From contig JANXMY010000039.1 of NCBI GenBank assembly GCA_025354405.1, positions 1 to 44,663 on the forward strand: DNA of 44,663 nucleotides. Direction: 5' to 3'. This DNA is from Armatimonadota bacterium. GTDB taxonomy: Bacteria > Armatimonadota > Armatimonadia > Armatimonadales > Capsulimonadaceae. Made by a program: the position numbers and the translations under genes. Shown piece by piece: positions 8,710 through 34,889 of the stretch (its first letter is position 1; each line of letters begins with the position of its first letter). Below the pieces are notes generated by a model. That model searched no databases and was not told the DNA's origin. It saw nothing but the letters and a program-made list of their open reading frames with translations.

Positions 8710-9441
8710 ATGGAACCGATTGAAATCTGGGGTATGGTCTTTGAAATCGTACGAAAACAGCTGCCTACCCCCGCCGTCTGGCTGGCGATGCAGGCCGTCA
8801 AGCCGCTGGCGATCGACGGCAATTACTTCGTTGCCGCTCTGCCTCCGCAGGAACAGTATCTTTCCAGCAACCTGCAGGACGATCAGACCGCAACTGCGAT
8901 TGAAGACGCTCTGAAGGAGATTACCGGCCGAATACTCGCCTTCCGCCTGATCGAAGGAGCAACACTGGCGGATTGGGAACAGGAGAAAGCGAGAGAATTC
9001 GCTCCGATTCCTGAGCCAGCACCCGCCGCTGTCCCCGGCCATGCCGTGATGGGCAAAGCCGCACCGACGGGCAAAGCCGAACCGGCGGCTCAGCCCATTT
9101 CTTCCTCGGCACACTTAACGTCGGCAGATTCGACGCGCAGCGTTAGCCCCACCTGGGAAAAGCTGAATGAACGGCTGATGCAAGGCTACAAATCTGCCCC
9201 TTTCATTAAATATCCGCACGGACAGGCACAATTTGTGTTAGCAGCCGTCCAGTGCATCTCCGACACGATGGATCTTCTTATGCCCCCGACGGGCGCAGTG
9301 CGTGAAGATCAGCAGGAACGTGCTCTCGCCAAAGTCATCGAGCGTCTTGGCAGTGTCATCAACCTCGACCCCATGTTTTTATCATTGGAGCTGCTGCGCT
9401 TTCGAGGTGGGCAGGGGAAATGGCCCCACAACACATTGTAG
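8710..9441 (+). CDS. Protein with DnaA domain-I-like N-terminus, function unknown
   Basis: A 243-residue protein. Residues 1-85 resemble the N-terminal protein-interaction domain of DnaA: the pattern IWGMVFEIVRKQLPTPAVWL, a strand pair (VKPLAIDGNYFVAALP), then a helix and a last strand (IEDALKEITGRILAFRLI). There is no AAA+ or DNA-binding domain. A Pro/Ala-rich linker (about 100-145) leads to a helical C-terminal domain (FVLAAVQCISDTMDLLM). The start is ATG 8710, preceded by AAAGGAG seven bases away. The stop TAG belongs to the arm of the repeat at 9437-9539. I infer that it binds a replication or DNA-repair partner; this is not shown by the sequence. Confidence 0.6.
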   Translation: MEPIEIWGMVFEIVRKQLPTPAVWLAMQAVKPLAIDGNYFVAALPPQEQYLSSNLQDDQTATAIEDALKEITGRILAFRLIEGATLADWEQEKAREFAPIPEPAPAAVPGHAVMGKAAPTGKAEPAAQPISSSAHLTSADSTRSVSPTWEKLNERLMQGYKSAPFIKYPHGQAQFVLAAVQCISDTMDLLMPPTGAVREDQQERALAKVIERLGSVINLDPMFLSLELLRFRGGQGKWPHNTL

Positions 9442-9539
9442 GGGCGCTGCTTGCTGCGCCCTCTTTCCTATCCTAAACTCATTTTTAAGATAAGAAATGA
9501 AGAGAGGGCAAAGAGGGCGCAGCAAGCAGCGCCCCTACA
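9437..9539. repeat. GTAGGGGCG-family palindrome, non-coding copy
   Basis: The arms 9437-9466 and 9510-9539 are exact 30-bp reverse complements, beginning TGTAGGGGCGCTGCTTGCTG. The spacer is about 43 bases and carries a partial second copy of AGAGGGC beside the right arm. The left arm contains the stop codon of the preceding gene. Related copies are at 20416-20600, 34687-34889 and, in part, 26323-26528. Confidence 0.85.
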
Positions 9540-19479: not shown

Positions 19480-20394
19480 CTAGTCTCGTGCCAGAGCGAT
19501 CAGGCGATCCAGAAGCTGTGCGAAGGTGTACCCTGCCGCTTCCGCCGAACGCGGCAGCAGACTTGTGGGTGTCATGCCCGGAATGGTATTCACTTCCAGC
19601 GTATAAATCTGGCCTTCGGGCGTGATAATCATGTCCGTGCGGGACATTCCCCGGCAGCCGAGTGTTTGGTGGCAAAGCTGCGCGATGCGCCGGGCTTCCG
19701 CCGCTAAGGTCTCGGAAATACGCGCCGGAACGATCTCATCGGTCGCTCCGGCTGTATATTTCGCTTCGTAGTCATAAAAGCCGCCGTTTGGCACAATCTC
19801 GACTATCGGCAGCACTTCCAGATCGGCGTTCCCCAGAATTGGCACGGTGATTTCCGTCCCCGTGATGAACTGCTCGATCAGCACCGTGTCGTCGTACCCG
19901 AATGCCGCTTCAACAGCGGGAGAAATCTCTGCACTTGTGCGCGCGATCGCCATGCCGATGGTCGACCCCAGCGCATTCGGCTTGACGATGCAGGGCAGTA
20001 CAATCTCGCCCGCCAGCGTTTCGCCGCGCCGCAAGGTCGTATCCTGCGGCATCAAGACGCCCGCCGCCGTCAAAACACGCTTGGACATCGCCTTGTCCAT
20101 CGCCAGCGCACTCGCCAGAACACCGCTCCCGGTGTAGCGAATGCCGAGCAGGTCCAGCAGGCCCTGCAAAGTTCCGTCCTCGCCGCCCTTGCCATGCAGA
20201 GCAATCACGGCAACATCGGGCCGGTCTTCAGCTAACGATTTAAGCAGTGCCGGCATCTGCGCTGTATCCAGCGAGGTGAAGGCGTAGCGAGACTCGTCGA
20301 GCGCCCCTAAGATCTGCTTGCCGGTGGAGAGAGAGACGTCGCGCTCGGCACTGGTCCCCCCCATCAGGACGGCGATTTTTTGCTTGGCGATCAC
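19480..20394 (-). CDS. ddl: D-alanine--D-alanine ligase
   Basis: A 304-residue ATP-grasp enzyme that makes D-Ala-D-Ala for MurF. The N-terminal loop is VLMGGTSAERDVSLSTG with the D-Ala-binding Glu. ALHGKGGEDGTLQGLLDLLGI and GSGVLASALAMDKAMSK follow. The ATP-binding core is ALGSTIGMAIA with EQFITGTEITV, and the C-terminal metal site is LEVNTIPGMTPTSLLP. It has normal length. The GTG start at 20394 overlaps the murC stop as GTGA, so translation is coupled to the unusual repeat-derived end of murC, which also contains the ribosome-binding region (AGAAGGTAGAGG). Confidence 0.95.
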   Translation of the reverse strand: MIAKQKIAVLMGGTSAERDVSLSTGKQILGALDESRYAFTSLDTAQMPALLKSLAEDRPDVAVIALHGKGGEDGTLQGLLDLLGIRYTGSGVLASALAMDKAMSKRVLTAAGVLMPQDTTLRRGETLAGEIVLPCIVKPNALGSTIGMAIARTSAEISPAVEAAFGYDDTVLIEQFITGTEITVPILGNADLEVLPIVEIVPNGGFYDYEAKYTAGATDEIVPARISETLAAEARRIAQLCHQTLGCRGMSRTDMIITPEGQIYTLEVNTIPGMTPTSLLPRSAEAAGYTFAQLLDRLIALARD

Positions 20395-22001
20395 GAGGCC
20401 TCTACCTTCTGCGAGGTAGGGGCGCCGCTTGCCGCGCCCTCTTGGTTTGCCGCGCCCTCTTGGTTTGCCGCGCCCTCTTGGTTTGCCGCGCCCTCCTGGT
20501 TTGCCGCGCCCTCCTGGTTTGCCGCGCCCTCCTGGTTTGCCGCGCCCTCCTGGTTTGCCAGAACGCCACGAGAAGAGGGCGCGGCAAGCGGCGCCCCTAC
20601 AATTTTGGGGAAGGCCGCAGATCCTCCCAGTGCCAGCAGGCCCTCTCCCGCCGCACGGATATCTCCCGCACCGAGAGTCAGGAGCAGGTCGCCGGGGCGG
20701 ACGATCTCGGCCAGCCTGGCTGGAAGTGCGGCTTTATCCGCAATATAAGTCACATGGTTCGCCCCGCGCCGGTCAGCGGTGAGCGCGGCCAGACTTGCCC
20801 CGGTGACACCTTCGATCGGCTGTTCGCGGGCCAGATAGATGTCGGTCAGCACCACATGGTCGGCTTCGGCGAAGCTCTCAGCAAAGTCGGTTTTGAAGTC
20901 GCGTGTGCGGCTGGGCAGGTGCGGCTGGAACACAGCGACGATGCGCCGCTCCGGGTAGGCACTCCGTGCGGCGGAGAGGGTCGCACGAATTGCAGTCGGG
21001 TGGTGGGCATAGTCGTCGATCACCAGAACCCCCGACGGCGTCTCGCCCAGCCGCTCGAAGCGACGGCCAGTTCCAGTAAATGCGTTCAGGCCTTGGGCAA
21101 TCTTCGCGAACGGAACTCCCAAAGTCAGACCGACTGCCAGAGCCGCAAGTGAGTTCGAGACATTGTGCATCCCGGGAACATTTAGCGTAATCCGTCCCAG
21201 CGTCTCCCCGTGCCAAACGGCAGTATAGCTCGGGGAGGCGCTCCCGGCTTCGATTTCGATGGCGTGCAGGTGAGCCGTACCACAAAGGCCATAGGTGACC
21301 ATCTCCGGGCCATCCGTCTTTTCCATCAGAGCCGCAATCAATGTCCGCACATTTTCGTCGCACTCATTCATAATTACCGTGCCCGTGACTTGGGACAGGA
21401 ACTTTCGAAACGAGCGCAGTACATTGTTTAAATCGCCGTAATAGTCCAGATGGTCGGCCTCAACATTCGTGACCACAGCGATTTTTGGGTCCAGGTCCAG
21501 AAATGAGTCGTAGGCCTCGCAGGCTTCGGCCAGGAAAACGTCGCTGCCCCCCAGCCGGGCATTCCCGCCGTAGACCGGCAAGTCTCCGCCAATCAGAGTC
21601 GTGGGATCCAGCGCTCCGGCTTCCAGCACCATCGCCGTCATGCCGGTCGTCGTCGTCTTGCCATGCGTTCCAGTGATCGCGACTGAGCGAGGGTACTTCG
21701 CCATTAGGCGCCCCAGCATCTCCGCACGCGAGATAATCGGAATGCCCTGGGCCTTCGCCCCAACGATCTCCGGGTTATCTTTCTTGACGGCAGCAGTCGC
21801 CACCACCAGAGTCACACCGGCCAGATGGGCCGCATCGTGCCCGGCATAGGCCGTGATTCCCGACTCGCGCCGCAGCGACTCCAAAGTCGCCGACTCCTGC
21901 GCATCCGAGCCGGAAACGTGCACATCCTGACGCGCCAGAATCCGGGCGAGACCGCTCATTCCCGACCCGCCAATCCCCACAAAATGTAACCATTCGCTCA
22001 C
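20391..22001 (-). CDS. murC: UDP-N-acetylmuramate--L-alanine ligase with repeat-derived C-terminal tail
   Basis: MurC adds L-Ala to UDP-MurNAc. Using GTG 22001 (VSEWLHFVGIGGSG, with AGGGG upstream), the protein is 536 residues. TTG 22040 is an alternative. The Rossmann start HFVGIGGSGMSGLA, P-loop TGTHGKTTTT and central EACEAYDSFLDL are present, and the normal enzyme ends near GDIRAAGEGLLAL. Beyond that about 70 residues are encoded by a palindromic repeat: the arms give GAPLAAPSS and GAASGAPTS, and between them seven copies of NQEGAA come from a 7 x 18-bp tandem array. The tail is Ala/Gly-rich, probably disordered and outside the catalytic core. The reading frame stays open through the repeat to the GTGA overlap with ddl. 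Confidence 0.93.
   Translation of the reverse strand: MSEWLHFVGIGGSGMSGLARILARQDVHVSGSDAQESATLESLRRESGITAYAGHDAAHLAGVTLVVATAAVKKDNPEIVGAKAQGIPIISRAEMLGRLMAKYPRSVAITGTHGKTTTTGMTAMVLEAGALDPTTLIGGDLPVYGGNARLGGSDVFLAEACEAYDSFLDLDPKIAVVTNVEADHLDYYGDLNNVLRSFRKFLSQVTGTVIMNECDENVRTLIAALMEKTDGPEMVTYGLCGTAHLHAIEIEAGSASPSYTAVWHGETLGRITLNVPGMHNVSNSLAALAVGLTLGVPFAKIAQGLNAFTGTGRRFERLGETPSGVLVIDDYAHHPTAIRATLSAARSAYPERRIVAVFQPHLPSRTRDFKTDFAESFAEADHVVLTDIYLAREQPIEGVTGASLAALTADRRGANHVTYIADKAALPARLAEIVRPGDLLLTLGAGDIRAAGEGLLALGGSAAFPKIVGAPLAAPSSRGVLANQEGAANQEGAANQEGAANQEGAANQEGAANQEGAANQEGAASGAPTSQKVEAS
20416..20600. repeat. GTAGGGGCG-family palindrome inside murC with 7 x 18-bp array
   Basis: The arms 20416-20443 and 20573-20600 are exact 28-bp reverse complements (GTAGGGGCGCCGCTTGCCGC at the left end). 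From 20431 to 20556 the unit GCCGCGCCCTCYTGGTTT is repeated seven times without interruption, with T in three copies and C in four. The first 13 bases of the unit are the inner end of the arm, so the array probably grew from it by slippage. Confidence 0.95.
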
Positions 22002-22101
22002 GGAATGCTGCCCCTGTTCTCTCACGTAGTTGCTGTCCAAGAATCTGTTACTTGAGTGACAAAGCTCCCCGTTATTTTACCATAGATTCACCGGGATCGG
22101 C

Positions 22102-23262: not shown

Positions 23263-23289
23263 GGCGTCGGAACCAGGTTAATCTTTGCC

Positions 23290-23423
23290 GACCCGGATTG
23301 GAAATCCGGGGCTGTAGAAGTGCGAATGTCCGCAGAGCGGACAAAGACACGGTTCCTGTGGGCTTCTCAAATGTCTACGCAGTAGACAATCGCTCTCCCA
23401 AAGACCCGGATTTCCAATCCGGG
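23290..23423. repeat. Hairpin mosaic between ftsW and murG
   Basis: The outer units 23290-23310 and about 23404-23423 (GACCCGGATTGGAAATCCGG type) are each hairpins and also pair with each other. Between them are TGTCCGC-AGA-GCGGACA and GTCTAC-GCA-GTAGAC. The outer hairpin matches the one inside the element at 1276-1294 apart from the loop. Confidence 0.75.
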
Positions 23424-23484
23424 TATCCGATAGCCATAGATGACGCTGGGCCACTGACTTATTTCTCGGAATCGGGGGCAGTTC

Positions 23485-24780
23485 TTAATCCCGCAGCACC
23501 CCAGTGTCTCGCCGGGCGCGGTCCAGCCGCCGCACCGTTGCGGAGGGACGCGGAGCAGCAGCGGTGCGAAGAAGATTTTTGTCCCAGCGGCGGTTCCAGT
23601 CGTCTTCGTTCGGATCGACCGTATGTTTCGTCTTGCCCTGCGGCCCATCCGGGTAGCTGGAGATGTTCAGCAATATCCCGATTCCCAGCAGCATCAGCAC
23701 CAGTGACGAGCCGCCATAGGAAATAAACGGCAGCGGCACGCCCGTGTCAGGAATCGACGCTGTCGCGACCGCCATGTTCACGAGTGCCTGGATACTGATC
23801 AGCGTCGTAATCCCCGCCGCCAGCAGGGCCCCAAACGGGTCCTTCGTCCGGTAAGCGATCGCATAGCCGCGCATGGCGACGAACACGAACAGTGTCACCA
23901 AGGCAAGCGTCCCAATCAGCCCCCACTCCTCGGCGATCACCGGGAAGATAAAGTCCGTGCGCGGCTCTGGAATAAACAGCTTCTCCCGGCCTTCCCCCAG
24001 CCCCATCCCCCCCACTCCGCCGGAACCCAGCGCAATGAGTGCATGCCAGACTTGGTATCCCGTATGATACTGGTCAGCCCGCGGGTCTAAGAAGGCGGTC
24101 AGCCGGTGCATTCGGTATGGTTTCGAGACGGCAAACAGCCCTCCGGCCACCACCACCGCCGCCAAAATCCCGCCCATATGCCGATGCTGCGCCCCGGCAA
24201 TGTACAGCATGACCAGGCCAGTTCCGCCCAGCACCATCGCCGTGCCAAGGTCCTGTTCGATTGCGATCAGTCCGGCCATCAGTGCCACCATCGCCAGCGG
24301 CGGAAGCAAGCCTTCCTTGGGACGCCGCTTGATCGCCAGCCGCCCCGCCAGTGTCCGGGCCAGGTACAGGACCATCACCATTTTCGCCAGCTCTGATGGC
24401 TGGAACCGAAACTGTCCATGCCCCAGCCAGCGACGTGCGCCGTTCACGTAGATACCGACATGGGGAATCAGGACCGCCACCAGCAAAATCACCGACAGCG
24501 AGACACCGATCAGTGCCACATTTTTCCATTTCCAGTAAGGCAGCCGCGAGGCCCACCAAAGTGCCAGCAGGCCGCCGACCGCCCACAGCCCCTGCATTTT
24601 GACGAAGTGGAACGAATCCCCGTGCAGCTTTTCAACCGCCATGGCATAGGAAGCATCATACACCGAAACGATACCGATGCCCAGGAGCAGAAAAGTCAGC
24701 CACAGCAGCAGCCGGTCCATCGGCTGCCGCTCGGCAACGGCCGTCTTCAGAATTGCCGCTTTCGTGATTTTCGTGCTCAT
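23485..24780 (-). CDS. ftsW: Lipid II polymerase FtsW
   Basis: A 431-residue SEDS-family peptidoglycan glycosyltransferase. About ten transmembrane helices are visible. Signature blocks include YDASYAMAVEKLHGDSFHFVKMQ, NGARRWLGHGQFRFQPSELAKM, IAIEQDLGTAMVLGGTGLVMLYIAG, the conserved RTDFIFPVIAEEWGLIG, and IPDTGVPLPFISYGGSSL near the end. The C-terminal 60 residues are cytoplasmic and Arg-rich (TVRRLDRARRDTGVLRD). It works with the class B PBP encoded upstream. RodA of the same family is possible on sequence alone, but the dcw context supports FtsW. Confidence 0.94.
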   Translation of the reverse strand: MSTKITKAAILKTAVAERQPMDRLLLWLTFLLLGIGIVSVYDASYAMAVEKLHGDSFHFVKMQGLWAVGGLLALWWASRLPYWKWKNVALIGVSLSVILLVAVLIPHVGIYVNGARRWLGHGQFRFQPSELAKMVMVLYLARTLAGRLAIKRRPKEGLLPPLAMVALMAGLIAIEQDLGTAMVLGGTGLVMLYIAGAQHRHMGGILAAVVVAGGLFAVSKPYRMHRLTAFLDPRADQYHTGYQVWHALIALGSGGVGGMGLGEGREKLFIPEPRTDFIFPVIAEEWGLIGTLALVTLFVFVAMRGYAIAYRTKDPFGALLAAGITTLISIQALVNMAVATASIPDTGVPLPFISYGGSSLVLMLLGIGILLNISSYPDGPQGKTKHTVDPNEDDWNRRWDKNLLRTAAAPRPSATVRRLDRARRDTGVLRD

Positions 24781-24821
24781 AAATATTTACATCCTAAAAT
24801 AGCAAACGAACCTGAGTGTAC

Positions 24822-24949
24822 AGAACCTAACCCCGACGCTTCGCGCCGCCACTTCCCGGTTAGGGAAGGGTAAGAATGAGGACCAGGCTTTTCCCTCTTC
24901 ACCCTCCCTTAACAGGGGAGGGGCGCAGCTTGCTGCGGGGAGAGGTTCT
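24822..24949. repeat. Imperfect palindromic element between murD and ftsW
   Basis: The ends AGAACCT (24822-24828) and AGGTTCT (24943-24949) frame diverged arms of about 49 bases, each with a C-rich run, a GC hairpin (GCTTCGCG or GCAGCTTGCTGC) and AGGGAAGGG-like ends. The right edge lies five bases from the murD stop. A related half-copy occurs at 44521-44578. Confidence 0.6.
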
Positions 24950-24954
24950 TAGCC

Positions 24955-26259
24955 TCAGGCCCGCCCACTCACCGCCGCCTTGAACTGATCGCCGCGATCC
25001 TCAAAATCCTGGAACATGTCAAACGACGCACACGCCGGAGCCAGCAGCACCGTATCCCCCGCCTGTGCCAACCCCCGTGCCTGAGCTACGGCGCCCAGCA
25101 AAGTCGCCGCTCGGTGTATGTTCAGGAACCCCGCCGCCCGCGCCGAAGCCTCGATCTCCGGGGCGGACCGTCCGATCAGCACCAGTGCCCGCACGGTATT
25201 TGCCGCGACCGCTTTACCTAGCTCCGCCACATCGTCGCCTTTGTACACCCCACCGGCGATCACCACCTTCGGCTCCGGCAAGGCCTCCAGCGATTTTGCG
25301 AACGCATCTGCATTGGTGCACATGGAGTTGTTGACGTACTTCACACCGTCAATCGTGTCCACATACTCCAGCCGATGCACCACCCCGGTAAAAGTCGTCG
25401 CTACTTGGCGGATAGGTTCAACCCCGATACCGAACGCCGTTGCCATCGCCGCCGCGGCGAGTATGTTTTCCCGATTGTGCAAACCGGGCAGTTTGCTTTG
25501 CGATAGGTCCAGGCCTAATTCATTTCCACCGAAACAGTCCAATCGGATAGGTATATCAGCCGCGGCAGTGCTTTGCAGAAGCGGCTCCGACACGACAGCC
25601 GTGTCACCACCATCCTGAAACTCAAATATCCGCCACTTCGCCGCCACGTACTCGTCCCAGGACTGCCGATCCGCGTGATCGGGTGTGATATTCAGCAGCG
25701 CGGCGACTTTCGGCTTGAAGGTCGAGATCCATTCCAATTGGAACGACGAAATCTCCGCCACAATTGCGGCTTCGGGCGGGGCCAGAAACGCCGCTTTGAT
25801 CAACGGCATCGCGATCTCTCCCGCCGCGATATTGCCTGCGATAAACGTCTCAATCCCGGCGGCTTTGAGCATCTCCGCCAGCAGCACCGTCGTGGTCGTT
25901 TTGCCGTTGGTACCCGTGATCGCTAGGATCGGCGCGCGTGCGATGCGATAGGCCGCTTCGATCTCGCCTAGTACGGGAACACCCGCCGCGACCGCCCTTT
26001 GCAGGACCGGAGCATCTTTCCGAACACCGGGGCTAGTCACTAAATAGTCAAGAACGGAATAGTCCAGCTCCGCCCCACCGACCACCGGCGTCAAGCCCAA
26101 CGCCTGCGCCGCCGCGACCGCTTCGGCCACCTCGGACAACGGCTTGCCGTCATACGGAATGACATGCGCTCCCAGTGCCGTCAGCACCTCGCAGCAGGCC
26201 ATTCCGCTGCGGGCCAGCCCCACCACCGCGACGGTTTTGTTTTCAAATTCCGTATGCAT
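24955..26259 (-). CDS. murD: UDP-MurNAc-L-Ala--D-glutamate ligase
   Basis: A 434-residue Mur ligase that adds D-Glu. The start is ATG 26259 (MHTEFENKTVAVVGLARSG); the frame is open 13 codons further without family similarity. An N-terminal Rossmann-like domain precedes the P-loop ITGTNGKTTTTVLL. EISSFQLEWISTFKPKVAALLNITPDHADR is the conserved central block, followed by GLHNRENILAAAAMA and HRLEYV. The C-terminal domain has NSMCTNADAFAKSLEAL (where S/T-K-T-N usually stands) and LLAPACASFDMFQDFEDRG. Normal length. The 226-base gap from mraY is filled by repeats. Confidence 0.95.
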   Translation of the reverse strand: MHTEFENKTVAVVGLARSGMACCEVLTALGAHVIPYDGKPLSEVAEAVAAAQALGLTPVVGGAELDYSVLDYLVTSPGVRKDAPVLQRAVAAGVPVLGEIEAAYRIARAPILAITGTNGKTTTTVLLAEMLKAAGIETFIAGNIAAGEIAMPLIKAAFLAPPEAAIVAEISSFQLEWISTFKPKVAALLNITPDHADRQSWDEYVAAKWRIFEFQDGGDTAVVSEPLLQSTAAADIPIRLDCFGGNELGLDLSQSKLPGLHNRENILAAAAMATAFGIGVEPIRQVATTFTGVVHRLEYVDTIDGVKYVNNSMCTNADAFAKSLEALPEPKVVIAGGVYKGDDVAELGKAVAANTVRALVLIGRSAPEIEASARAAGFLNIHRAATLLGAVAQARGLAQAGDTVLLAPACASFDMFQDFEDRGDQFKAAVSGRA

Positions 26260-26322
26260 AAGATTATTTTCCGATGCGGGCAAGTCGGATGACCTCACCC
26301 CGGCATAACCGCTAACAAGAAC

Positions 26323-26528
26323 GTAGGGGCGCTGCTTGCTGCGGGGGGCCTTGGAGACCTACCTGCTGCTCCGCAGCTTCCTTCCTAAAGGAAGGATTAT
26401 GATAAGCGAAACCGGCTTACGCTATTATCCGGGTCCTTCCTTTAGGAAGGAAGCTGCGGAGCAACAGGTAGGTCTCTTTTCATGGAGCCTATTCGGATAA
26501 GCTTTTACCCTAGCATAACCGCCCCTAC
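26323..26528. repeat. Composite element: partial GTAGGGGCG palindrome enclosing a 43-bp-arm palindrome
   Basis: Outer GTAGGGGCG (26323-26331) and CGCCCCTAC (26520-26528) frame an inner inverted repeat with arms 26354-26396 and 26434-26476 (GAGACCTACCTG at the start; one mismatch in 43). Each inner arm ends in its own hairpin TCCTTCC-TAAA-GGAAGGA. The outer right end contains the mraY stop codon. Confidence 0.85.
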
Positions 26529-27544
26529 AGCCAGACATACATCAGCGGCGCAAGAACCAACCCCAGGACCAGTGCCAGGACGCCAATGATCCAGAAGCGG
26601 GCGACCACCTGCGTCTCCGCCCAGCCCAGCTTCTCGAAATGGTGGTGGATCGGGGTCATCAAAAACACCCGCCGGCCACCGTTCAATTTGCCGCCCGTGC
26701 TCTGAAAGACGCTGACCTGGATCAAAACGCTTACAGTTTCCAGAATAAACACGAGGGCGTACAGCAGCACTAAAACTTCCTGCTTGCCGATGATCGCCAT
26801 CGCCGCAAACGAGGACCCCAGGGCCAGCGATCCCGTGTCGCCCATGAAGACCTTCGCCGGGTGGGCATTGAACCAGAGAAATCCCAGACATGCTCCCGCC
26901 AGTGCGAACCCGAACAGCGGGAGCTGCGGAAAGTTCAGATGCATCGTCAGCGACAGGCCCAGCAGCGTGAAGATCGAAAGCCCCCCGGCCAGGCCGTCCA
27001 GGCCATCCGTCAGATTGGCCGAGTTCGACAGACCGATCATCAGTATAAACGCCAGCGGGTAGTAAAACCAGCCCAGATCGCAGTGCTGATCGTGCCAGAG
27101 CCAGACCTGGGTCGTGAAGTTCGGCTGCGCCGTCAGACACAGCCAGCCGACGAACGCCAGCGCGATCACGACCTGTCCGGCCAGCTTTTCCCGAGCCTTC
27201 AGCCCCAGCGACTTGCCCGACTTGATCTTGCGAAAATCATCTGCGAAGCCCAGCGCGGCATGGGCGAGAAACACCAGCACAACCGCCGCCAGTGCTCCGC
27301 TGAAAGGGCGCAGAGCGGGCGCTGCAAGGACACCAATCGTCAGCGTCACCAGCAGGCTCAGCACCAGCAGAACGCCGCCCATGGTCGGAGTCCCCTGCTT
27401 CTTGCGGTGGCCTTCCGGGGCGTCTTCGTTGATGTTCTGGCCGAATTTCAGCCGGTGCAGCGCCGAAATCACACGCGGCCCCAAAACCACCGCGACACCG
27501 AAGGCGATCAGGAACGCGCCCAGGGCTAAAGGATCGAGTCTCAT
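26525..27544 (-). CDS. mraY: Phospho-MurNAc-pentapeptide transferase
   Basis: A 339-residue polytopic enzyme that makes lipid I from UDP-MurNAc-pentapeptide and undecaprenyl phosphate. Hallmarks are GHRKKQGTPTMGGVLL near the start, the catalytic Asp pair region ALGFADDFRKI, LSNSANLTDGLDGLAGGL with metal-binding Asp, FNAHPAKVFMGDTGSLALG, and the late MTPIHHHFEKLGWAETQVV. About ten transmembrane helices. The ATG at 27544 overlaps the murF stop as ATGA. The final codons MYVWL are followed by TAG, which lies in the edge of the repeat at 26323-26528. Confidence 0.97.
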   Translation of the reverse strand: MRLDPLALGAFLIAFGVAVVLGPRVISALHRLKFGQNINEDAPEGHRKKQGTPTMGGVLLVLSLLVTLTIGVLAAPALRPFSGALAAVVLVFLAHAALGFADDFRKIKSGKSLGLKAREKLAGQVVIALAFVGWLCLTAQPNFTTQVWLWHDQHCDLGWFYYPLAFILMIGLSNSANLTDGLDGLAGGLSIFTLLGLSLTMHLNFPQLPLFGFALAGACLGFLWFNAHPAKVFMGDTGSLALGSSFAAMAIIGKQEVLVLLYALVFILETVSVLIQVSVFQSTGGKLNGGRRVFLMTPIHHHFEKLGWAETQVVARFWIIGVLALVLGLVLAPLMYVWL

Positions 27545-30377: not shown

Positions 30378-30417
30378 AAAAAGTGATTGTCTGTCGTCAG
30401 GATCGGGCGGGATCAGA

Positions 30418-30542
30418 CGAGTGGTTCCAAACCACTCGCTAGGTTAAGCACCCTTCGGGTGTCGGAGAGGACCACAAATTGTGGGGCCCTGTTCCGAACG
30501 TCCGCAGGACGCCTCACCTAGCGAGTGGTTTGGAACCGCTCG
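30418..30542. repeat. Hairpin mosaic with 27-bp arms between murE and ftsI
   Basis: The arms 30418-30444 and 30516-30542 are near-perfect reverse complements (CGAGTGGTTCCAAACCACTC at the left; one mismatch), and each arm is itself a hairpin. Between them are short hairpins CACCC-TTC-GGGTG, CCACAA-ATTGTGG and CGTCC-GCA-GGACG. The right arm encodes the last residues and stop of ftsI. Confidence 0.85.
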
Positions 30543-32428
30543 TTCGGCTCATTCGGCCTTATCTTTGTACCACTCCGCTTCACCTTCAAATGGTCGTCCC
30601 AGTCGACCACCCCCGGCGCATCGGGCGTGATCTGCATCTGAAGCATGGCGGCCCGTGCGATATTATGCACGACCGGAGCGGCGACCGCGGCCCCCCAGTG
30701 TATTCCCTGCGGCTCATACACCGCGCAGAGAATGACCAGGCGCGGATGCGAAAGCGGATACATACCGACGAACGAGGCCACAAAATGCCCGTTCTCGTAG
30801 CCATGCCGCCCGGATACCTGGGCCGAACCGGTCTTGCCGCCAACACTGAAATCCGCAATCTGGGCGGGCTTTCCGGTACCGGACTGCACGACCGTTCCCA
30901 GCATCGAACGAACCGCCGCCGCTACCGGCGGATCCAGCACGCGCCGGATGATTTCCGGTGGGTTCGGTGTCTCCTGGCCGTTTCGGCGCACGGCACGCAC
31001 GATATGCGGGCGCAACAGATTTCCACCGTTCGCCACGGCGCAGTAGGCGGTCGCGAGCTGCAGAGGAGTGACCGAGATGCCCTGACCGAACGCAATATTC
31101 GCCAGCTGGATTTTCGACCAGCCGACTCCGCCGGTAAAGCGGTTTGGGCTGTTGGGAGCAGAAAGCGTCGATTTCGTCTCTCCGGGCAGGCCGCTGCCGG
31201 GCAGGTCGAGGAAACCGAACTTCTGTTCATAATCATACAGCTTGTCCGCCCCAAGCCGCAGGCCGAACTGAGCCATGCCGACATTTGACGAAACCCGCAG
31301 AATGCCGCGCAGGTTCTGGCTGCCCAGGTTCTTTGTCAGCTCATCCGCCGCTTCGTGGATGACCCGGTTGCCAATCTGCAGAGTGGGGCTGCAATAGACT
31401 TCCGTATTCATCATACCCAGACCCTGTTCCTGCAGGACGGCAGAGGCAGTAATTGTCTTCAAAGTCGACCCGGGTTCGTACAGGTCGGATACCGCCCCAT
31501 CGCGCCAGCGGGAAGCAACTCCTAAAGCTGCCTCTCGGGACAAGCGCTGTGCGGGGCGCGGGAGGTTCGGATTGTACGTCGGAGCCTGGGAAAGGGCCAT
31601 GATTTCGCCGGTGGACGGATCCATAATGATGACGATGCCGTGGTGGGCATGGTGCCCGGTCACAGCTTTCGACAGCTCGCTATCCGCGACGTGCTGAAGC
31701 CGCTCATCGAGAGTCGTCACGATATCCGCGCCATTTTCCGGCTCGCTTTGGTGCCGGGTAGTTCCGGGCAGGAAACGTCCATCCCGGTCCGTCTCGGCGA
31801 CGATTTTACCGTCTTTTCCGTGCAGCAGGCTTTCCTGGCTGCGCTCCAGCCCTTCGATGCCCATGCCATCGCGGTCGGTGAAGCCCAGGACCTGAGCCGC
31901 CAGTGTGCCATCGGGATAGGAGCGGCTGGTATCGGGAACTGCATACACGCCCACGATACCTGCCTGTTTCAGCGCCGAGGTGATCGCCGTCACTGGAAGC
32001 ATCCCGGAATCCAGGCGGGGGACCGTCAGGTGGCGCTTGAGGGAAACGTAGTGAACATGAGTCGAGCGGGGAGTGAGCAGACGCAGAAGCCGGGCCGGAT
32101 CGTCGTGCAGAAGAGGAGCGAGGAGAGCGGACGTGGCGGCGGGATCGGCCACTTCCTGCGGGTCGGCGTAGACAGAGGCCGCCGGAATATTTCCTGCCAG
32201 CGTGCCGCCATCCCGATCCAGGATCTGGCCGCGCCGGGCAGGCAGTATATTGGTATTGACTCGGTGCGCATCGGCTTCCTTCTGAAAATACGTATGCCGG
32301 GCAGCCTGGAGATAGACCAAGCGCCCGGCCAGCATCAGATAGAGGCCTGCCACAAAGGCAAACACCCACGTCGCCCGCGGTTTAATGATGGAGAGATGCT
32401 GCTGTGCTGCCGTCTGCTGTCGTGCCAC
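30518..32428 (-). CDS. ftsI: Septal class B penicillin-binding protein (FtsI/PBP2-type)
   Basis: A transpeptidase that cross-links septal peptidoglycan. The start is GTG 32428 (VARQQTAAQQ) with AGGGA eight bases upstream; TTG 32458 also stays open. A short cytoplasmic part, one transmembrane helix (WVFAFVAGLYLMLAGRLVYL) and the pedestal (RRGQILDRDGGTLA) precede the catalytic domain. Motifs counted from the TTG are STLK (331-334, nucleophile Ser), SSN (390-392) and KTG (542-544). I see no clear PASTA domain. The C-terminus ERFQTTR and its TAG stop are encoded by the arm of the repeat at 30418-30542. Overlaps ftsL by 47 bases. Confidence 0.93.
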   Translation of the reverse strand: MARQQTAAQQHLSIIKPRATWVFAFVAGLYLMLAGRLVYLQAARHTYFQKEADAHRVNTNILPARRGQILDRDGGTLAGNIPAASVYADPQEVADPAATSALLAPLLHDDPARLLRLLTPRSTHVHYVSLKRHLTVPRLDSGMLPVTAITSALKQAGIVGVYAVPDTSRSYPDGTLAAQVLGFTDRDGMGIEGLERSQESLLHGKDGKIVAETDRDGRFLPGTTRHQSEPENGADIVTTLDERLQHVADSELSKAVTGHHAHHGIVIIMDPSTGEIMALSQAPTYNPNLPRPAQRLSREAALGVASRWRDGAVSDLYEPGSTLKTITASAVLQEQGLGMMNTEVYCSPTLQIGNRVIHEAADELTKNLGSQNLRGILRVSSNVGMAQFGLRLGADKLYDYEQKFGFLDLPGSGLPGETKSTLSAPNSPNRFTGGVGWSKIQLANIAFGQGISVTPLQLATAYCAVANGGNLLRPHIVRAVRRNGQETPNPPEIIRRVLDPPVAAAVRSMLGTVVQSGTGKPAQIADFSVGGKTGSAQVSGRHGYENGHFVASFVGMYPLSHPRLVILCAVYEPQGIHWGAAVAAPVVHNIARAAMLQMQITPDAPGVVDWDDHLKVKRSGTKIRPNEPNERFQTTR

Positions 32429-34686: not shown

Positions 34687-34889
34687 GTAGGGGCGCTGCT
34701 TGCTGCGCCCTCTTATCCTGCCCCCGCGCTCTTATCCTGCCACCGCGCTCTTATCCTACCCCCGCGCTCTTATCCTACCCCCGCCCTCTTCACTGTCCTG
34801 AGCTTTGCTCCGGCACAAGCAGATGAAGAAGAGGAAAAGAGAGGAGAGGAAAAGAGAGGAGAGGAGGGCGCAGCAAGCAGCGCCCCTAC
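34687..34889. repeat. GTAGGGGCG-family palindrome with 19-bp and 15-bp tandem arrays
   Basis: The arms 34687-34712 and 34864-34889 are exact 26-bp reverse complements. Next to the left arm, CTCTTATCCT recurs every 19 bases, with TCTTATCCT at 34711, 34730, 34749 and 34768. Next to the right arm is GAGGAAAAGAGAGGA, twice plus a part. The right end stops 17 bases before the stop of the 34907-35281 gene. Confidence 0.9.

Follow-up and report, generated by a model that had tools for sequence, protein, structure and literature searches.

Hairpin-ended repeats in the dcw cluster of an Armatimonadota genome: a probable family of non-autonomous IS200/IS605-type transposons

REPIN or BIME elements, associated with RAYT proteins, consist of two inverted hairpins around a short core and are dispersed and Y1-linked (PMC3116915, PMC6006769). 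In TIRtrons a Y1 gene lies between long repeats that are unrelated to GTAG REPs and in some cases double palindromic; such repeats also form moderately abundant families without the gene (PMC3733652). IS200/IS605 elements such as IS608 have a Y1 enzyme and subterminal hairpins, one at each end (PMC6006769). A text search of PMC3733652 found no mention of Armatimonadetes, and nothing relevant was found in the literature on palindromes of this group.

The window (contig C192, 44,663 nucleotides) is part of an Armatimonadota MAG of 3.6 Mb in 233 contigs, here called G000. Pfam matches of the neighbouring genes place the repeat described below in a dcw cluster, where the gap between ftsI and murE holds a 125-bp element of a family designated A. 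An earlier note, made from the window alone, had described this gap as a mosaic of five hairpins with stems of 5-9 bp and 27-nt arms; the positions and fold statistics obtained here agree with that description. The features are as follows.

30418-30542, no strand assigned: family A element, 125 bp, in the ftsI/murE gap; dispersed in the genome and missing from the orthologous position in the sister species.
30418-30438, plus strand: outer hairpin of one end, CGAGTGGTT.CCA.AACCACTCG, 9 bp; recurs at about 45 places and covaries as a local hairpin.
30439-30444, plus strand: spacer CTAGGT, pairing with ACCTAG; near-invariant in 51 copies.
30449-30461, plus strand: inner hairpin A, CACCC.TTC.GGGTG, 5 bp; T-N-C loop read inward, with a GGA/GAA loop on the other strand in 51 of 51 copies.
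30472-30484, plus strand: core hairpin CCACA.AAT.TGTGG, 5 bp; part of the variable core, whose length and sequence differ among copies, and not a feature of the family.
30499-30511, plus strand: inner hairpin B, CGTCC.GCA.GGACG, 5 bp; GNA loop in 47 of 51 copies.
30516-30521, plus strand: spacer ACCTAG; its minus-strand CTAG is the source of the FtsI stop codon (30518-30520).
30522-30542, plus strand: outer hairpin of the other end, CGAGTGGTT.TGG.AACCGCTCG, 9 bp with one G-T pair; read on the minus strand, it codes for the final FtsI residues, ERFQTTR.

All five hairpins have loops of three bases, and the spacers CTAGGT and ACCTAG lengthen the inverted arms to 27 nt. The family layout is outer hairpin, CTAGGT, inner hairpin A, variable core, inner hairpin B, ACCTAG and outer hairpin. 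Compared with shuffles, the copy folds to -48.5 kcal/mol as single-stranded DNA (z -9.85) and to -86.7 as RNA (z -10.6). The reading of the right arm as ERFQTTR at the FtsI end was borne out, and the TAG stop codon of ftsI falls in the CTAG that copies of the element conserve. Insertion at this site would have separated the two genes, replaced the last residues of FtsI and supplied its stop codon.

BLAST with 30417-30543 located about 45 separate matching sites in the genome. Full copies were aligned from G000 (36), which was searched and sampled in stretches, and from the sister species G001 (15). The 51-copy consensus is CGAGTGGTT-GAA-AACCACTCG-CTAGGTGAGG-CACCC-TCC-GGGTG-core-CGTCC-GNA-GGACGC-ACCTAG-CGAGTGGTT-TTC-AACCACTCG. 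Since the inner hairpins differ between ends, the element has two distinguishable ends. Arms were conserved and cores variable among copies, and the outer-hairpin loop was GAA in 89 of 102 cases. CGAG/CTCG forms the outer base of the hairpin and CTAG(G) its inner-side foot. The left and right arms of a copy often differ in subtype, with mixed pairs formed among GTGGTT.GAA.AACCAC, GTGACT.GAA.AGTCAC and GTAGTT.GAA.AACTAC. When the exact arm was searched in 84,980 named genomes, a set from which the window's own genome is possibly omitted, the sole match was the sister MAG, Armatimonadetes bacterium 341R_concoct_144 (G001).

Within arms, 98% of the pairs were standard and 37 cells carried compensating changes, a level reached by 0 of 500 shuffles, the cells not being independent events. 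An arm-to-arm cruciform as the selected structure was ruled out by covariation: between left and right arms only 8 cells had compensating changes, and 107 of 500 shuffles reached that number. The covariation supports the single arm hairpin, each arm folding alone, as the selected unit, which fits what would be expected for a protein reading hairpins on single-stranded DNA.

In G001 the ftsI-murE gap is without the element and measures 8 bp, against 140 bp in G000 (lengths read from the sequence). The window sequences 23283-23486, 24782-24971 and 26263-26529 were also lacking there. Five further family A sites (L002, L019, L021, L022 and L026) were empty in G001 with both flanks found, and no recognisable arm was found at the G001 counterparts of L004 and L144. 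Diverged intergenic DNA blurred the precise insertion points at most empty sites. L002, the sole empty site with flanks conserved enough for target reading, carries CACTCG, which may represent either a target or the trace of an excision; from it comes the one candidate target, CTCG/CGAG. Family A is thus multi-copy and short, with inverted ends, no coding capacity and positions that vary between related genomes, the properties of a MITE.

The very stable RNA fold, together with flanking genes that are co-directional and probably co-transcribed, would suit an element that regulates the operon or acts in it as a structured RNA, for instance by attenuation or by stabilising the ftsI/murE mRNA, and that is retained because of its RNA fold. 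Rfam matched only tRNA in the window and nothing in the element, which is also absent from the same operon of the sister and whose copies sit in many unrelated flanks. A primary role of this kind is judged quite unlikely; the element may have a secondary effect on expression.

Among stretches fetched around copies, and so not in a random sample, family A copies were found in both species at four sites (L155/L171, L015/L170, L027/L166 and L007/L169) and abutted in both at two more (C208/L164 and C48/L174). With six sites occupied in, or abutting a copy in, both species, some of the family is old. Core lengths differed at three of the four shared sites (elements of 136 or 142 bp against 106 or 110 bp), and therefore replacement or gene conversion also occurs. 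Such unequal cores, as gene conversion would give, and the failure to find a cognate transposase in the assembly would agree with a domesticated REP-like family that owes its distribution to past transposition and gene conversion, is now immobile and has roles at the DNA level (supercoiling, nucleoid binding). At least six sites, however, are occupied in G000 only, and we consider this explanation very improbable. At one shared site (L169 1-250, at the start of contig C163 of G001) the sequences on either side of the element are near-identical and inverted relative to each other, as would result from an inverted duplication or from a contig-end fold-back.

Mosaics of similar construction had been proposed at 23290-23423 and within 1246-1373. 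Both exist, at 23291-23424 and 1246-1373, with limits that were read correctly, and share the construction of the ftsI/murE copy with different stems. They were assigned to two further families, B and C.

23292-23423, no strand assigned: family B element in the murG/ftsW gap, CCCGGATT.GGA.AATCCGGG ... TGTCCGC.AGA.GCGGACA ... TGTCTAC.GCA.GTAGACA ... CCCGGATT.TCC.AATCCGGG; more than 20 full copies, the sister being without the element.
1246-1373, no strand assigned: family C element, TAGACCTCTTGCGTAAGT terminal repeats enclosing CCCGGATT (B-type) and a CCCTGCACT hairpin; about 20 copies.

Each family C element has one B-type hairpin and one of the CCCTGCACT type. Family C differs in kind from the others: another sort of terminal repeat bounds it and encloses this hybrid, and the whole is dispersed as a unit. 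Stems of at least 8 bp with three-base loops numbered 6 in the window against 0.2 in shuffles, and 115 in 560 kb of G000 against 12-18; this sample was taken around known copies, so that densities are inflated while the recurrence is real. Most of the 115 fall into the stem families GAGTGGTT, CCCGGATT, CCCTCCCG, CCTGCACT and GAGTGACT. The stem CCCTCCCG alone occurred 12 times in the sampled G000 loci.

The earlier note had suggested a modular class assembled from interchangeable hairpins, to be judged by whether the same hairpins recur elsewhere in the genome. They do recur, at dozens of places, and appear in differing combinations. Arms also swap, as seen in the mixed pairs of family A, the hybrids of family C and the outer hairpins of a relative described below. 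Free assembly from a pool is not supported. Each family keeps to one order, with an outer hairpin, then a CTAGG spacer, then an inner hairpin that is not the same at the two ends; its copies share descent and disperse as whole units. The three mosaics represent three separate mobile families.

Family C also bears on whether family A is a MITE of a DDE transposase, with long terminal inverted repeats in which the arm hairpins are incidental. The arms of family A are indeed inverted repeats, and family C, which the window also contains, lacks arm hairpins and ends in simple terminal repeats (TAGACCTCTTGCGTAAGT). Left and right arms of family A, however, diverge while each retains its own hairpin, no target duplication was seen by eye around the 51 copies, and Y1 genes with repeats of the same build are present in the taxonomic order. 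We regard a DDE-type element as unlikely.

Other repeats were recorded in and near the window. A palindromic family (GTAGGGGCGC-NGCTTGCNG-CGCCC) with the GTAG tag of REPs lies at 9437-9539, 20416-20600, 26322-26346 and 34687-34889. Its units at 20429-20559 and 34706-34790 are expanded into tandem arrays of 18-19 bp, and arrays of similar unit sequence are present in the sister (L132, 6448-6511 and 19834-19918). The array at 20429-20559 falls inside a minus-strand Mur ligase gene (ORF 20391-22040), at its 3' end, where it would encode the C-terminal tail of the protein. Between murD-like and mraY-like genes, 26354-26476 is an inverted repeat with 52-bp arms (GAGACCTACCTGCTGCTCCGCAGC...) that the sister lacks.

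G000 contains four Y1_Tnp genes. One (C208:423-764) has family B repeats on both sides, those on C51 and C20 are flanked by further multi-hairpin repeats, and that on C168 has no long flanking repeat. Among 34 Y1 genes from G000 and eight relatives, long flanking inverted repeats (IR score above 25, with a background 95th percentile of 13) accompanied 21 of the 26 with Pfam scores below 100 bits, many of them built like the ends of family A, against 0 of the 8 above; one of 60 random placements scored as high as the real flanks. Some of these 21 repeat sets have no perfect hairpins with three-base loops. Where such hairpins occur, 14 of 22 have a T-N-C loop in the inward reading, against 5 of 44 in control DNA, with unrelated stems (Fisher tests treated the ends as independent). 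At L030 (250-350) a GTAG-type unit was noted between GGCTTTGTTGCATAAAT and its inverted near-copy, beside the left half of a family B element and a Y1 gene.

No Y1 gene with family A ends, nor any other transposase-bearing element with such ends, was found in G000 or G001, both incomplete MAGs. A near match is the Y1 gene L212 of G007, from another family of the same order, which has CGAGGAGTTGAAAATTCCTCG-CTG ends and related inner hairpins. In the G007 copies L231, L233 and L234 a CGAGGAGTTGAAAATTCCTCG-type outer hairpin is paired with a family A outer hairpin. From these resemblances, L212 is the closest candidate mobiliser of family A. Seven Y1 proteins were scanned; none exceeded the RAYT cut-off, scoring 22-36 bits, where they matched at all, against the REP_Tyr_transpos cut-off of 80. 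They pass the cut-off of NF033573, the IS200/IS605 family of Y1 enzymes.

Family A is probably a non-autonomous transposon of IS200/IS605 type, a MITE of 100-142 bp with an outer and a smaller inner hairpin at each end. This reading is preferred because of the dispersal of the copies, their absence from the sister here and elsewhere, the covariation within local arms and the same-build repeats that flank Y1 genes in the order. We infer that a Y1 enzyme moves it by way of single-stranded DNA and that the sites targeted or cleaved are CGAG/CTCG. In this scheme a Y1 transposase (HUH, single-tyrosine) acting in trans would recognise the hairpins in their single-stranded form, probably at the fork during replication, and cut the element ends, and the excised single strand would be joined into a new site.

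In G000, 28 of 71 copy ends had a short tandem repeat within 60 bp; the figure was 2 of 67 for positions 200 bp away and 1 of 29 for ends in G001. CGAG, oriented as in the adjacent end, occurred 18 times per kb near the ends and 5 times per kb far from them. At sites occupied in both species (L007, L015, L027, C208 and C48), again in stretches fetched around copies, the arrays were confined to G000, and they therefore grew after insertion. They could have arisen by slippage at the hairpin base or by repeated cutting at CGAG-like sites. Tentatively, and with considerable doubt on our part, the Y1 transposons of this order may share a stem-independent end code, an outer hairpin (G-R-A loop in A and B) followed by an inner T-N-C hairpin. 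The transposase would read loop and geometry, and the G000 arrays would start from its cuts at CGAG-like sites next to the ends. Stems would then be free to drift and families to diversify.

These repeats provide a natural series of ends for Y1 transposons, with stems that vary between families and a constant hairpin geometry and inner-loop type, which would make enzyme recognition directly testable. Several gaps of one essential operon are filled in G000 but not in G001, so that expression of the division genes can be compared. The arrays at copy ends suggest that minisatellites start from hairpin ends.

Compared with IS608, the repeats share the Y1 enzyme family and subterminal hairpins and differ in having two hairpins per end. 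They resemble REPINs and BIMEs in overall plan, dispersal and link to Y1 genes. Unlike those, family A has two hairpins per end and no GTAG/GTGG at the hairpin foot, and no cognate RAYT is among the Y1 genes found in G000. Long inverted repeats flanking Y1 genes, and families of repeats alone, recall TIRtrons; of the families here, B itself flanks a Y1 gene (C208), and A has only the near match in G007. The two ends with different inner hairpins, the T-N-C loops and the end arrays in one species set them apart from TIRtrons; the inner-loop rule and the short tandem arrays grown at copy ends after insertion are apparently new. Family A fits as a variant close to the published REPIN and TIRtron elements, distinguished by the missing GTAG tag, two unlike inner hairpins and proteins below the RAYT cut-off.
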